Assembly (NCBI GenBank): GCA_021299385.1
Contig: JAJTGZ010000021.1
Span: 1 to 37,824, forward strand
Reading direction: 5' to 3'
Length of the DNA: 37,824 nucleotides
From: Phycisphaeraceae bacterium
Lineage (GTDB): Bacteria; Planctomycetota; Phycisphaerae; Phycisphaerales; UBA1924
The notes beneath the pieces were generated by a model. That model was not told the origin of the DNA. It worked only from the letters and a program-made list of their open reading frames with translations, and made no database searches. The position numbers and the translations under genes are program-made. Shown here one piece after another: positions 26,174-29,722 of this stretch (its first letter is position 1; every line of letters starts with the position of its first letter).

Positions 26174-28390
26174 TTAGCCGACGTCGGCCAGGCCGAGCCA
26201 CTTGCCATGGGCTTTGAGCAGGCGTGCGCGGGCGAGTTTGTCGGCTGGGGTGTCCAGGCGTGGGGAGCGTTCGAGCCACGCCGCCGCGTCTCGGCGTGCG
26301 AGGGTCAGCAGGTCCAAATCGCGTGCGAGATCGGCGACGACGAAGGGTGGCATGCCCGACTGGCGGACGCCGATGACGTCGCCGAAGCCGCGGATCTCGA
26401 TGTCCTTCTGGGCGATCTTGAACCCATCGTTGCTCTTGGCCATGATGCCCAATCGCTCGGCGGCGACGGGGCTGGCGGTGCTGGTGATGAGCACGCAAGC
26501 GCCCGCCTTGCCCCCACGCCCGACGCGCCCGCGCAGCTGGTGCAGCGTTGCCAGGCCGAAGCGGTCGGCGTCCTCGACGATCATCATCGTCGCCTCGGGG
26601 ACGTCTACGCCGACCTCGATGACCGTGGTGGCGACCAGCGCGTCGATCGCCCCGGCACGGAAGAGGGCCATGATCGCGTCGCGCTCGGGCTGCGGCAAGC
26701 GGCCGTGCAGGGCGGCGAGTTTCTTCCCCTTGAGCGGCCCGGCCGTGAGTTCGGCCAGGAGGTCGGCCACGGTAGTGGGCAACGCGGGGCGAGTGGGCGG
26801 CGGTGCCGACAGAGGTGCCGAACCCTCGCCGACCGCACCACGATCTGGACCACCCTGAGCACTCTTTTCACCTCCCGCCTCGAAGATCGAGTCTTCTTCC
26901 ATAGTTTCGCGGTCGATTGCCGGGGCGACGATGAAGGCCCTTTCCCCGGCGTCCAGCCGCGTGCGGACAAAGGCGTAGACCTCCTGCCGGGCCATCGAAT
27001 CGACGACGCGTGTAACGATTTTCTTCCTCCCTGGCGGCAGCGCGTCGATGAGCGAAACGTCCAGGTCACCCAGCACCGTCATCGCCAGCGTGCGGGGGAT
27101 CGGCGTGGCGGTCATCACCAAAACGTGCGGCATCGTGCCGACGCCCTCACCCTTGCCACGCAGTGCCAGACGCTGGTGGACGCCAAAGCGGTGCTGCTCG
27201 TCGATGACGGCCACGCCCAGGCTCTTGAAATCGACGGCACGCGAGAAGAGTGCGTGGGTGCCGATGGCGATGTCGATCGTCCCATCGCGCAGCCCCGCGA
27301 GCGTTGCCGAGCGCTCGCCGGCGGAGAGGCTGCCGGTCAAGAGCGCCACGCGCACGCCCGAGCCTTCGAGCATCCCCCGGATGGTCGCGGCGTGCTGCTC
27401 GGCGAGGATCTCCGTCGGTGCCATGAGCGCCCCCTGGTGGCGGTTGGCGACCGCCGCGAGCATCGCGTAGAGGGCCACGGCGGTCTTGCCCGAGCCGACA
27501 TCACCCTGGATGAGCCTGCTGGCCGGCTCTGGCCTGGCCAGGTCGGCGGTGATCTCTTTGACCACGCGGTCCTGCGCGGCGGTGAGTTTGAACGGAAGCC
27601 GGGCGCGGATGTGCTTGTCGATCTGCGGGCCAACAGGCAGGGCGGGCGCACGCGTGGACTGGCGGACCATCGACCTCTTGAGCGCAAGGGCGAGTTGCAG
27701 CATCAGCAGTTCATCAAACGCCAGCCGACGCCGGCCGGCCTTGACCTCGTCGTCGTGGGCGGGCTGGTGCATCATCCGATAGGCCTGGGCCAGGGTTGGC
27801 AGCGAGTGCTGGGCACGGAAGTCGTCGCTGAGGTGGTCGGCGATCAATGGCAACGCCGCGGGGAGGACCGATTCGATCAGTTGGCCGATCTGCCTGCTGC
27901 TGATGGCCGAGCTCGCGGCATAGACCGGGCGGAGTTTTTCCTCCCGCATCGGGGGCTCGGCGTCTTCGCGCAGGATGTCGTGCTTGGGGTTGGCCATCTG
28001 TAGCCCTGGTCCAAACTTCTGGGCCTTGCCCTGCACGCGCAGGCGGATGCCCGGGACGATGGAGCCGTGCAGATAGGTGGCATTGAACCAGCAGAGGTCC
28101 AGCCGGCCTGTCTCATCGATGAGCACGGCCTCGAAGCGCGCCTTGCCCCGGCGGGCGACGCGCGTAGCCGTCACTTCGCCACGCGTCGCGGCGTTGACCC
28201 CTACTGCCAGGTCGCCGATGGGTGTCTCGGCTTCGAGTTTCTCATGCCGGGTTGGGAGATAGGCGATGAGCTGCCCCACGGCCCTTACCCCAAGCTCGGC
28301 CAGGGCCTCGGCCCGGCGCGCCCCCACGCCCCGGACCGCCGAGACCGGGGAGGTCAACACCAAAGCCGAGCTCGCCAGATCACCTGCCAC
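26174..28390 (-). CDS. recG: ATP-dependent DNA helicase RecG
   Basis: RecG remodels stalled forks and branched DNA. From GTG 28390 the product is 738 residues (E. coli 693). The N-terminal wedge/OB region is followed by Walker A GDVGSGKTA (296-304), DEQHRFG (397-403), TATPIPRTLA (427-436), LHGRLPQPER (561-570), TTVIEVGVDVPEAT (588-601), QLRGRVGRGG (618-627) and the RecG-specific RGFGDVIGVRQSG (667-679). Residues about 497-540 are a Gly/Pro/Ser-rich insertion in the second helicase lobe. I chose GTG 28390 because the family begins just before the SPVSAVRGVG motif; the frame is open to 28498 over untypical sequence. An intrinsic terminator upstream (28531-28565) separates it from the Lys-rich peptide gene. 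Confidence 0.95.
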   Translation of the reverse strand: MAGDLASSALVLTSPVSAVRGVGARRAEALAELGVRAVGQLIAYLPTRHEKLEAETPIGDLAVGVNAATRGEVTATRVARRGKARFEAVLIDETGRLDLCWFNATYLHGSIVPGIRLRVQGKAQKFGPGLQMANPKHDILREDAEPPMREEKLRPVYAASSAISSRQIGQLIESVLPAALPLIADHLSDDFRAQHSLPTLAQAYRMMHQPAHDDEVKAGRRRLAFDELLMLQLALALKRSMVRQSTRAPALPVGPQIDKHIRARLPFKLTAAQDRVVKEITADLARPEPASRLIQGDVGSGKTAVALYAMLAAVANRHQGALMAPTEILAEQHAATIRGMLEGSGVRVALLTGSLSAGERSATLAGLRDGTIDIAIGTHALFSRAVDFKSLGVAVIDEQHRFGVHQRLALRGKGEGVGTMPHVLVMTATPIPRTLAMTVLGDLDVSLIDALPPGRKKIVTRVVDSMARQEVYAFVRTRLDAGERAFIVAPAIDRETMEEDSIFEAGGEKSAQGGPDRGAVGEGSAPLSAPPPTRPALPTTVADLLAELTAGPLKGKKLAALHGRLPQPERDAIMALFRAGAIDALVATTVIEVGVDVPEATMMIVEDADRFGLATLHQLRGRVGRGGKAGACVLITSTASPVAAERLGIMAKSNDGFKIAQKDIEIRGFGDVIGVRQSGMPPFVVADLARDLDLLTLARRDAAAWLERSPRLDTPADKLARARLLKAHGKWLGLADVG

Positions 28391-28530
28391 GAACCAATGT
28401 AGCGACCCCGAACACCCCCCGCACCCCAGGCACGTTTGTCGCCACCCCGGCTCCCCACCATATATATGTCCCCCCAGGCCCCCTTTGCGATTTGCCATTT
28501 GCTAGTTGACTTTGCCCCTATTTGCCAACG

Positions 28531-28565
28531 AAAAAGCCCGGCCGATCCTTTCGGATCAGCCGGGC
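28531..28565 (-). terminator. Intrinsic terminator of the Lys-rich peptide unit
   Basis: On the minus strand a 7-bp GCCCGGC/GCCGGGC stem, one A-C mismatch and a further 5-bp GATCC/GGATC stem close a GAAA tetraloop, followed by TTTTT. It ends the transcript of the small peptide gene 165 bases after its stop and insulates recG. Confidence 0.92.
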
Positions 28566-28729
28566 AAAGGGGTGTGAACGCTCGGCGGGCCTTGTCGGGG
28601 AGACATTGCTGCAACCCGCTTGGCTCTCGACCGAACGGCCGCGGGCTTGGCTCGGCGTGCGCCGCTGTGCTAGGCACGGCAGCTCGACGCCGCAGGCTTG
28701 CGCGCCGCGGGCTTGTCGACGGGCCAGAG
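28556..28729 (-). pseudogene. In-frame KPAA-rich continuation, possible broken histone-like tail
   Basis: Directly after the TAA of the Lys-rich peptide gene the same frame reads LWPVDKPAARKPAASSCRA, then TAG, then a run with AKPAAVRSRAKRVAA, then TGA inside the terminator stem (28556-28558). The Lys-Pro-Ala-Ala pattern is typical of histone-H1-like tails. The frame from ATG to this TGA is 79 codons with two internal stops. I infer a once longer basic protein that is now truncated; chance similarity in a GC-rich stretch remains possible. Confidence 0.4.
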
Positions 28730-28792
28730 TTACTTGGCCTTCTTCTTGGCCTTCTTCTTCGCGGCCTTCTTCTTTGCGGCTTTCTTTGCCAT
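28730..28792 (-). CDS. 20-residue Lys/Ala-rich peptide
   Basis: A very short gene encodes Met followed by only Lys (12) and Ala (7), in blocks of AKKK type. A strong GGGGAG ribosome site stands eight bases before the ATG, and an intrinsic terminator lies downstream, so it has all the parts of a real gene. The composition matches the basic tails of bacterial histone-H1-like proteins and would bind nucleic acid without sequence preference. Upstream there are two hairpins (28805-28819 and 28830-28870), the first reaching into the ribosome site. The same frame continues with KPAA-rich sequence after the stop, so it may be the surviving N-terminus of a longer protein. It is divergent from dapB. 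Function is inferred only from composition. Confidence 0.6.
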   Translation of the reverse strand: MAKKAAKKKAAKKKAKKKAK

Positions 28793-28804
28793 GGTTGGAA
28801 CTCC

Positions 28805-28819
28805 CCGGGGTAACCCCGG
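28805..28819 (-). promoter_or_regulatory. Hairpin overlapping the ribosome site of the Lys-rich peptide gene
   Basis: CCGGGG-TTA-CCCCGG forms a 6-bp stem whose 3' end shares two bases with the GGGGAG ribosome site. Folding could limit ribosome access, so translational control is plausible. Confidence 0.5.
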
Positions 28820-28829
28820 ACATAGGACT

Positions 28830-28870
28830 CTCGTGTGCGCCCCAGGCCAACACGGCCTGATGCACACGAG
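28830..28870 (-). promoter_or_regulatory. Large leader hairpin
   Basis: A 9-bp CTCGTGTGC/GCACACGAG stem with a small internal loop and an inner 6-bp CAGGCC/GGCCTG stem closes a 5-base loop. It lies in the presumed 5' leader of the Lys-rich peptide gene. No U-tract follows, so it is not a terminator. Confidence 0.6.
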
Positions 28871-28978
28871 CGAATCAACGGATCTATCGGAACAGAACCC
28901 TCGGTTACTTGAGCGACTCGCGTGATCGAGAGGACATTCCACTATCGTGCCACACCATTCCATACACTCGCATACCCA

Positions 28979-29722
28979 ATGTCAACTATCCACATTGTCA
29001 TTCTTGGTGCCGCCGGTCGCATGGGTAGACGCCTGACCGAGCTCGCATCCATCGACCCTGAGCTCACACTCGCAGGTGCCGTAGTGCGCGGCGGCGCAGA
29101 CCAGATCGGCCTGCCCGCATCACTCTCTCCGCACGCGGCGGCGATCGGTTTCATCTCGGCTGATGATGTCGCGGGGCCTGTGCACGCGATCATCGATTTC
29201 AGCAGTGATTCAGGCGTGTTTTCGGCCATCGCGCTGGCCGAGAAGTTCAACGCCGCGCTCGTGGTGGGTACCACCGCGCTGAGCAGCTCATCCACCAGCG
29301 CGCTGCGCGAGTTGTCAGCGCGCCGGCCCGTGCTCGTTACCCCCAACACATCGCTGGGCGTCGCCGCCGTGGCTGATGCCGTCAGCAGGCTTGCGCGGCA
29401 CCTCGGGCCGGGGTACACCTGCTCCATTTTGGAGATCCATCACACGCGCAAGAAAGACGCACCCTCGGGCACCGCTCTGCGTCTTGCGCACGCCGCGCGG
29501 GCAGGCTCGGCCGTCATCAACGACGCGGATATCCACTCCGAGCGCACCGGCGAGGTCATCGGCACCCACACTGTTACCTTCACCGGGCCTTGCGAGGTCA
29601 TCGAACTGACGCACCGCGCAACCTCACGCGACCTCTTCGCCCTCGGCGCGTTGCACGCGGCCAAGTGGCTCTCGCGTCAACAGCCGGGGTGGTACACCAT
29701 CGAGGACGTCCTGCACGCATAA
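28979..29722 (+). CDS. dapB: 4-hydroxy-tetrahydrodipicolinate reductase
   Basis: DapB reduces the dihydrodipicolinate precursor with NAD(P)H in lysine and diaminopimelate synthesis. From ATG 28979 the product is 247 residues. VILGAAGRMGRR is the Rossmann nucleotide loop, VVGTT a conserved turn, NTSLGVA the usual N(F/T)S stretch, and EIHHTRKKDAPSGTA the catalytic and substrate signature. An in-frame GTG at 28922 would add 19 residues before the conserved strand and is unlikely. No ribosome site is visible before the chosen ATG, so a leaderless or weakly translated start is possible. The TAA stop is partly formed by the first two bases of a 36-bp repeat that follows directly. Diaminopimelate synthesis supports a peptidoglycan-containing wall. 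Confidence 0.96.
   Translation: MSTIHIVILGAAGRMGRRLTELASIDPELTLAGAVVRGGADQIGLPASLSPHAAAIGFISADDVAGPVHAIIDFSSDSGVFSAIALAEKFNAALVVGTTALSSSSTSALRELSARRPVLVTPNTSLGVAAVADAVSRLARHLGPGYTCSILEIHHTRKKDAPSGTALRLAHAARAGSAVINDADIHSERTGEVIGTHTVTFTGPCEVIELTHRATSRDLFALGALHAAKWLSRQQPGWYTIEDVLHA

Follow-up and report, generated by a model that had tools for sequence, protein, structure and literature searches.

A conserved lysine/alanine peptide gene behind a near-private promoter-like element in Phycisphaerales, a probable minimal H1-like polycation

INTRODUCTION

Bacterial H1-like proteins with long repeat-rich tails are known, as is their variation in length. The closest described examples are chlamydial Hc2, which is encoded by hctB and measures 165 to 237 aa in C. 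trachomatis, and Bordetella BpH1, with reported lengths of 182 to 206 aa (PMC2848022). Peptides built of KPAA repeats are reported to bind DNA in vitro, and condensation of polyphosphate is reported for polycationic peptides (PMC9239181). Translation of the histone-like protein HctA is held down at the RNA level by the Chlamydia sRNA IhtA (PMC3469542), and the sigma-28 factor of C. trachomatis binds only two promoters, those of hctB and tsp (PMC12282069). The sigma-28 consensus is TAAAGTTT-N11-GCCGATAA, with a spacing of about 15 (PMC7286023).

Here we describe a locus of Phycisphaerales that resembles Hc2 and BpH1 in its Lys/Ala-rich repeats, the lack of a globular domain and length variation through repeat number, but differs from both in that a single block of 12 to 29 aa is the rule in 28 genera. 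The KPAA tails of Pseudomonas AlgP and PhaF have a similar H1-tail-like Lys/Ala composition; AlgP, however, combines a helical domain of 124 aa with a repeat region of 154 aa, whereas the peptide described here has neither a globular domain nor proline. As with IhtA and HctA, translation of a histone-like protein would be restrained at the RNA level, but IhtA acts in trans and the candidate elements here are hairpins in the gene's own leader.

RESULTS

The window is the whole stretch of DNA analysed, a contig of 37,824 nucleotides from a Phycisphaerales metagenome-assembled genome that we label G000. A preliminary description of this DNA had read a small unit on the minus strand with two leader hairpins, a ribosome site, a Lys/Ala gene and a terminator containing a TGA, and all these elements were found as read (Table 1). 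The transcription unit is real, consisting of a promoter-like element, the hairpins, a 20-codon gene and a strong intrinsic terminator; the reading was accurate but had overlooked the promoter-like element.

Table 1. Features of the peptide transcription unit and its divergent neighbour in the window
Feature	Position	Strand	Basis
Promoter-like element GCTCAAG-N17-CCGATAGA	28883-28914	-	Family-wide motif; single exact copy in G000
Leader hairpin 1, 9 + 6 bp, loop GTGTT	28830-28870	-	-28.7 kcal/mol, z -4.2; equivalents in the genus
Leader hairpin 2, CCGGGG-TTA-CCCCGG, 6 bp, abutting the ribosome site	28805-28819	-	Equivalents in the clade with compensatory changes
Ribosome binding site GGAG, 8 nt 5' of ATG	28801-28804	-	Sequence
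Lys/Ala peptide gene MAKKAAKKKAAKKKAKKKAK; 20 codons (M + 12 K + 7 A), ATG 28792-28790, TAA stop 28732-28730	28730-28792	-	Orthologues in 94 genomes of 47 genera
3' untranslated stretch, about 165 nt, with KPAA-like reading	28566-28729	-	Not conserved as protein
Intrinsic terminator GCCCGGCTGATCC-GAAA-GGATCGGCCGGGC-TTTTT	28531-28565	-	13 bp + T5, z -7.9
dapB, divergent conserved neighbour	28979-29722	+	Start codon inferred

Orthologues of the peptide gene are widespread in the family, with 99 intact copies in 94 genomes of 47 genera; a hundredth collected gene (L171, 11 aa, cut by a contig end) was excluded from the length range. A DNA search with the unit matched the same-genus genome G001 over 391 bases at 69% identity and gave shorter matches, covering the ribosome site and the Lys/Ala codons, in many genomes. 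A pattern of ribosome site, spacer and MAKK...KKK was matched by 79 of 150 family genomes, and the reversed control gave no match. When the amidohydrolase gene was used as anchor, the peptide gene was also found in genomes missed by the pattern search, and some anchored loci had no such gene or were cut by a contig end, indicating that its presence is common and not universal. The ATG and the ribosome site, whose conservation in relatives had been proposed as a check, are both kept widely: every collected gene starts with MAK, and GGAG lies near the ATG in 100 of 100, most of which were collected with a pattern that requires GGAG. A search of a plasmid collection gave no match.

Comparison of neighbours showed a divergent gene upstream, either dapB (26 of 94 loci) or an M16 peptidase gene, and as the usual downstream neighbours an Amidohydro_3 gene and a gene that we call DUF2470-like, a label of our own for a gene with no Pfam hit. 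The recG/dapB spacer had been suggested as a syntenic anchor. This holds for dapB, which is a conserved neighbour, but not for recG, as the DNA up to about 1.5 kb from recG showed no Lys/Ala reading frame in any of 29 relatives; recG was therefore ruled out, and dapB, M16 and the amidohydrolase are the right anchors. In G000, recG (26174-28498) occupies the place downstream of the peptide gene that in most relatives is taken by the DUF2470-like and amidohydrolase genes, and the amidohydrolase gene of this genome sits on another contig (G000:C26).

The promoter-like element T[CG]AAG-N17-CCGAT[AG] occurs in 86 of the 94 family loci, about 70 to 105 nt upstream of the ATG. Its spacing is exactly 17 nt in all 86, although 14 to 20 nt were permitted, and several of the eight exceptional loci have a single-base difference at the same spacing. 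The background of CCGATA is about 0.06 per 170 nt. The extended element is present in G000 as one exact copy, with none at one mismatch and a chance-level number beyond that (up to three mismatches); the same picture was obtained in G003 and, among the matches listed, in G001. The exact core occurred zero to three times per genome in a search of 41 genomes, and following it in G024 and G026 revealed Lys/Ala genes missed by the ribosome-site pattern. Other Phycisphaerales families also have this element 5' of H1-like genes.

The element is similar to the sigma-28 promoter of hctB, with CCGATA as -10-like and TCAAG as -35-like part resembling TAAAG...GCCGATAA; compared with sigma-28, the -10 core is identical and the -35 core similar, but the spacing of 17 nt is 2 nt longer than the usual value of about 15. 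A FliA/WhiG-type sigma factor is present in all 41 genomes tested. Sigma-28 is a tentative candidate for the cognate factor, but no copy of the element was seen before the flagellin genes that we inspected in six of these genomes, and matches to the standard sigma-28 pattern were rare, near control level.

The intact genes fall into a short class (63 genes of 12 to 29 aa in 28 genera) and a long class (36 genes of 37 to 150 aa in 20 genera), and the two occur together in one genus only. Short peptides consist of 60% Lys and 21% Ala, with a mean net charge of +12.4, and long ones of 42% Lys, 24% Ala, 14% Thr and 13% Arg, arranged in H1/Hc2-like AKK/TRKKA repeats. As in Hc2 and other H1-like proteins, the Lys/Ala-rich repeats come without a globular domain. 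Length class agrees with phylogeny: in a tree built from the neighbouring proteins, which is midpoint rooted only, the two classes are explained by 7 Fitch changes, compared to at least 20 in 300 shuffles. Elsewhere in the order, outside this family, the copies that follow this promoter-like element are mostly 35 to 118 aa long, with one of 24 aa (G026). These mostly long outgroup copies, beside the midpoint-rooted tree, favour long-to-short as the main direction of change. The idea that an H1-like protein has been cut down to a tiny basic peptide thus gains from both sides, from a syntenic H1/Hc2-like gene in 20 genera and from the outgroup.

We compared the long orthologues with known profiles. 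Two of seven tested matched Pfam HC2 (PF07382) weakly, at 22.6 to 26 bits against a cut-off of 40 (E 1e-5 to 1e-4), and the scores were at most 23.9 bits against 80 for NF038053 and 19 against 135 for NF038052. The 20-mer itself gave no hit to these profiles and matched no family. With scores below the cut-offs, the gene would be placed beside Hc2 by resemblance and synteny, not as a proven family member.

The gene is under coding constraint. Among 19 pairs of related short genes (351 codons), codon positions 1, 2 and 3 differ 39, 35 and 86 times, respectively, in a peptide-guided alignment of low-complexity sequence that somewhat favours positions 1 and 2. Moreover, five genomes of genus g3 (L198, L199, L200, L201 and L202) carry two tandem peptide genes of 12 to 17 aa, about 95 to 105 nt apart, each with its own ribosome site and ATG. 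Both the codon-position pattern and the tandem genes with their own ribosome sites point to the peptide as the product.

Hairpin 1 has equivalents in G001, G003 and G002, with two stems of different sequence and a constant loop GTGT(T). Hairpin 2 touches the GGAG and is weak in isolation (z -1.1); it abuts the ribosome site in G000, G001, G003, G125, G021, G124, G088, G076 and G089 alike, with apical pairs that change on both sides, is reduced to 4 bp in G051 and is absent from G002. The MAFFT alignment of the four genus leaders shifts the stems by one base, and because of this misplacement the stems were compared by anchoring on the loop and the ribosome site. Hairpin 1 covaries within the genus only and hairpin 2 within its clade. 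Leader folding z scores were -2.6 in G000, -4.0 in G001, -2.1 in G003 and -1.9 in G002, and the leaders of the family are mildly structured (mean z about -1.1). A leader motif, GTGGCGC, was enriched (13 of 64 leaders, compared to 0.9). The proposal of tight RNA-level control therefore stands only in part: both hairpins covary, but within genus or clade, a narrower scale than that of the ATG, the ribosome site and the Lys/Ala coding. No Rfam family was found at gathering score, the best sub-threshold match being suhB (21 bits compared to 41).

Terminator-like sites follow 62 of the 99 family genes, compared to 2.6 expected from shuffles. Between the TAA and the terminator of G000, the frame continues as ...DKPAARKPAA...*...AKPAAVRSRAKRVAA... 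across a TAG and ends with a TGA inside the terminator stem, and the proportion of K, A, P and R residues after the stop is mildly raised (32 of 55, compared to 24.4 in base-shuffled sequence; p about 0.008). The KPAARKPAA continuation described earlier can thus be read, but its interpretation as a broken tail belonging to the unit was not supported. None of G001, G003 and G002 has a KPAA-like stretch, and across 57 short loci there is no in-frame K/A excess after the stop (K 0.021; other frames 0.025 and 0.043). With no signal outside G000, the tail was rejected as a remnant. The stretch from stop to terminator has a median of 194 nt in short genes and 92.5 nt in long ones; a longer stretch in short genes would be expected if it were partly former coding sequence, yet there is no in-frame Lys/Ala signal.

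A conserved block with CTCCCCG, complementary to CGGGGAG in the ribosome-site region, is present in the 3' untranslated stretch of G000, G001 and G003 (window 28570-28605, L112 and L113), and a weak sub-threshold Rfam match to suhB/mmgR lies near it. Pairing of this CUCCCCG with the ribosome site was considered and rejected, as complementarity was not above that of swapped 3' untranslated stretches.

DISCUSSION

We consider it probable that this locus is a functional small gene for a minimal H1-like polycation, alone in its transcription unit. At one conserved locus, an orthologous gene encodes Lys/Ala/Thr/Arg repeat proteins of 37 to 150 aa in some Phycisphaerales; in much of the family, this genome among them, it would have been reduced to one short Lys/Ala block of 12 to 29 aa with a mean net charge of +12. 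Transcription would start at a dedicated promoter, stop at the gene's own terminator and cover no other gene, and in this genus the leader hairpin and the ribosome-site hairpin would probably damp translation; the position and covariation of hairpin 2 suggest that it gates the ribosome site. The composition of the peptide, the long orthologues and the papers on AlgP and Hc2 suggest DNA, RNA or polyphosphate as its most likely ligand, although a Lys/Ala block of 20 residues might bind to nearly any polyanion. The peptide would also help to compact or organise such polyanions, as the Hc2 and AlgP repeats do.

In several animal lineages, protamines are thought to be derived from histone H1. The Lys/Ala peptide resembles them as a short polycation that probably comes from an H1-like tail protein, but it is bacterial and uses Lys rather than Arg, so the likeness is an analogy and no shared ancestry is claimed. 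We tentatively put forward the more specific possibility, in which we place limited confidence, that the peptide is a bacterial protamine analogue, that is, an H1-like protein reduced in a large clade to one 12- to 29-residue lysine block that is expressed from a near-private promoter, gated by its leader RNA and compacts DNA, RNA or polyphosphate in a regulated state. On this view, a tail protein that binds DNA may have shrunk in these organisms to something close to a bacterial protamine.

Several other explanations have to be weighed. The preliminary description had left room for the RNA itself as the product, and a small regulatory RNA or riboregulator, with a short frame that is incidental or only gates the RNA, would fit the strong leader structure in the genus, the longer 3' untranslated stretch of the short genes and the enriched GTGGCGC motif. 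We nevertheless find this unlikely. The ATG, the ribosome site and the Lys/Ala coding are conserved throughout the family, far more widely than the structure, of which hairpin 2 belongs mainly to one clade; the long orthologues behind the same promoter are clearly protein-coding, one genus has two peptide genes in tandem, Rfam gave no family at gathering score and swapped 3' sequences are at least as complementary to the ribosome site. That the gene is what is left of a longer, decaying H1-like one, its broken tail being the KPAA stretch, is very unlikely. Longer orthologues do exist, and there is a weak in-frame K/A/P/R excess after the stop in G000, but the 57 short loci show no such excess for K, and G001, G003 and G002, the other members of the genus, lack the KPAA stretch. 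In 28 genera the short form, which is old, has been kept intact along with its promoter, ribosome site, stop and terminator, and this is why we do not regard it as decay in progress; conservation has largely refuted that reading.

Twelve Lys codons, a terminator downstream and the adjacent lysine biosynthesis gene dapB might recall a leader peptide acting on a neighbouring gene through attenuation. Such an arrangement has a biosynthetic gene downstream on the same strand, but dapB is divergent, so it does not lie downstream of the peptide and terminator, and it is not adjacent in many loci. The gene that does lie downstream is not conserved, being recG or the DUF2470-like gene depending on the genus, and long orthologues exceed 100 aa, all of which makes attenuation highly improbable. 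Hardly any weight can be given to a secreted or antimicrobial cationic peptide, or to the toxin of a toxin-antitoxin pair. The product is short and strongly cationic and its leader is structured, but it has no signal sequence and no hydrophobic segment, the locus has no conserved transporter or immunity gene and H1-like repeats extend the length to as much as 150 aa. Type I toxins are short hydrophobic membrane peptides, and Met plus 12 Lys plus 7 Ala is not of this kind.

The minimal H1-like polycation, our preferred reading, bears on how short a functional H1-like protein can be. The orthologues form a series of 12 to 150 residues at one locus and behind one promoter, making this question directly testable. 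The near-private promoter element points to a dedicated regulatory input that is worth identifying. The literature that we searched on H1-like proteins of Planctomycetes and Phycisphaerae describes no such short genes, nor a 12- to 29-residue form as the standard one of a large clade behind a near-private promoter. Annotation easily misses genes of this size, so a whole bacterial order may have a conserved chromatin-like component that went unnoticed.

Lys/Ala tails seem to be common on DNA-related proteins in this family. HU-looking proteins with Lys/Ala-rich N-terminal tails are present at L151, L193, L197, L204, L209, L211 and L226, and topoisomerase I-like proteins with a Lys/Ala tail at L135 and L227. 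On another contig of G000 (L230:1959-2486, G000:C15), an H1-like Lys/Ala/Pro N-terminal tail (MAKKSSKAAKKSVKKAPAKKKAIKKPAK...) precedes a different folded domain, and similar tailed proteins occur in other genomes, at L174, L179, L183 and L229.
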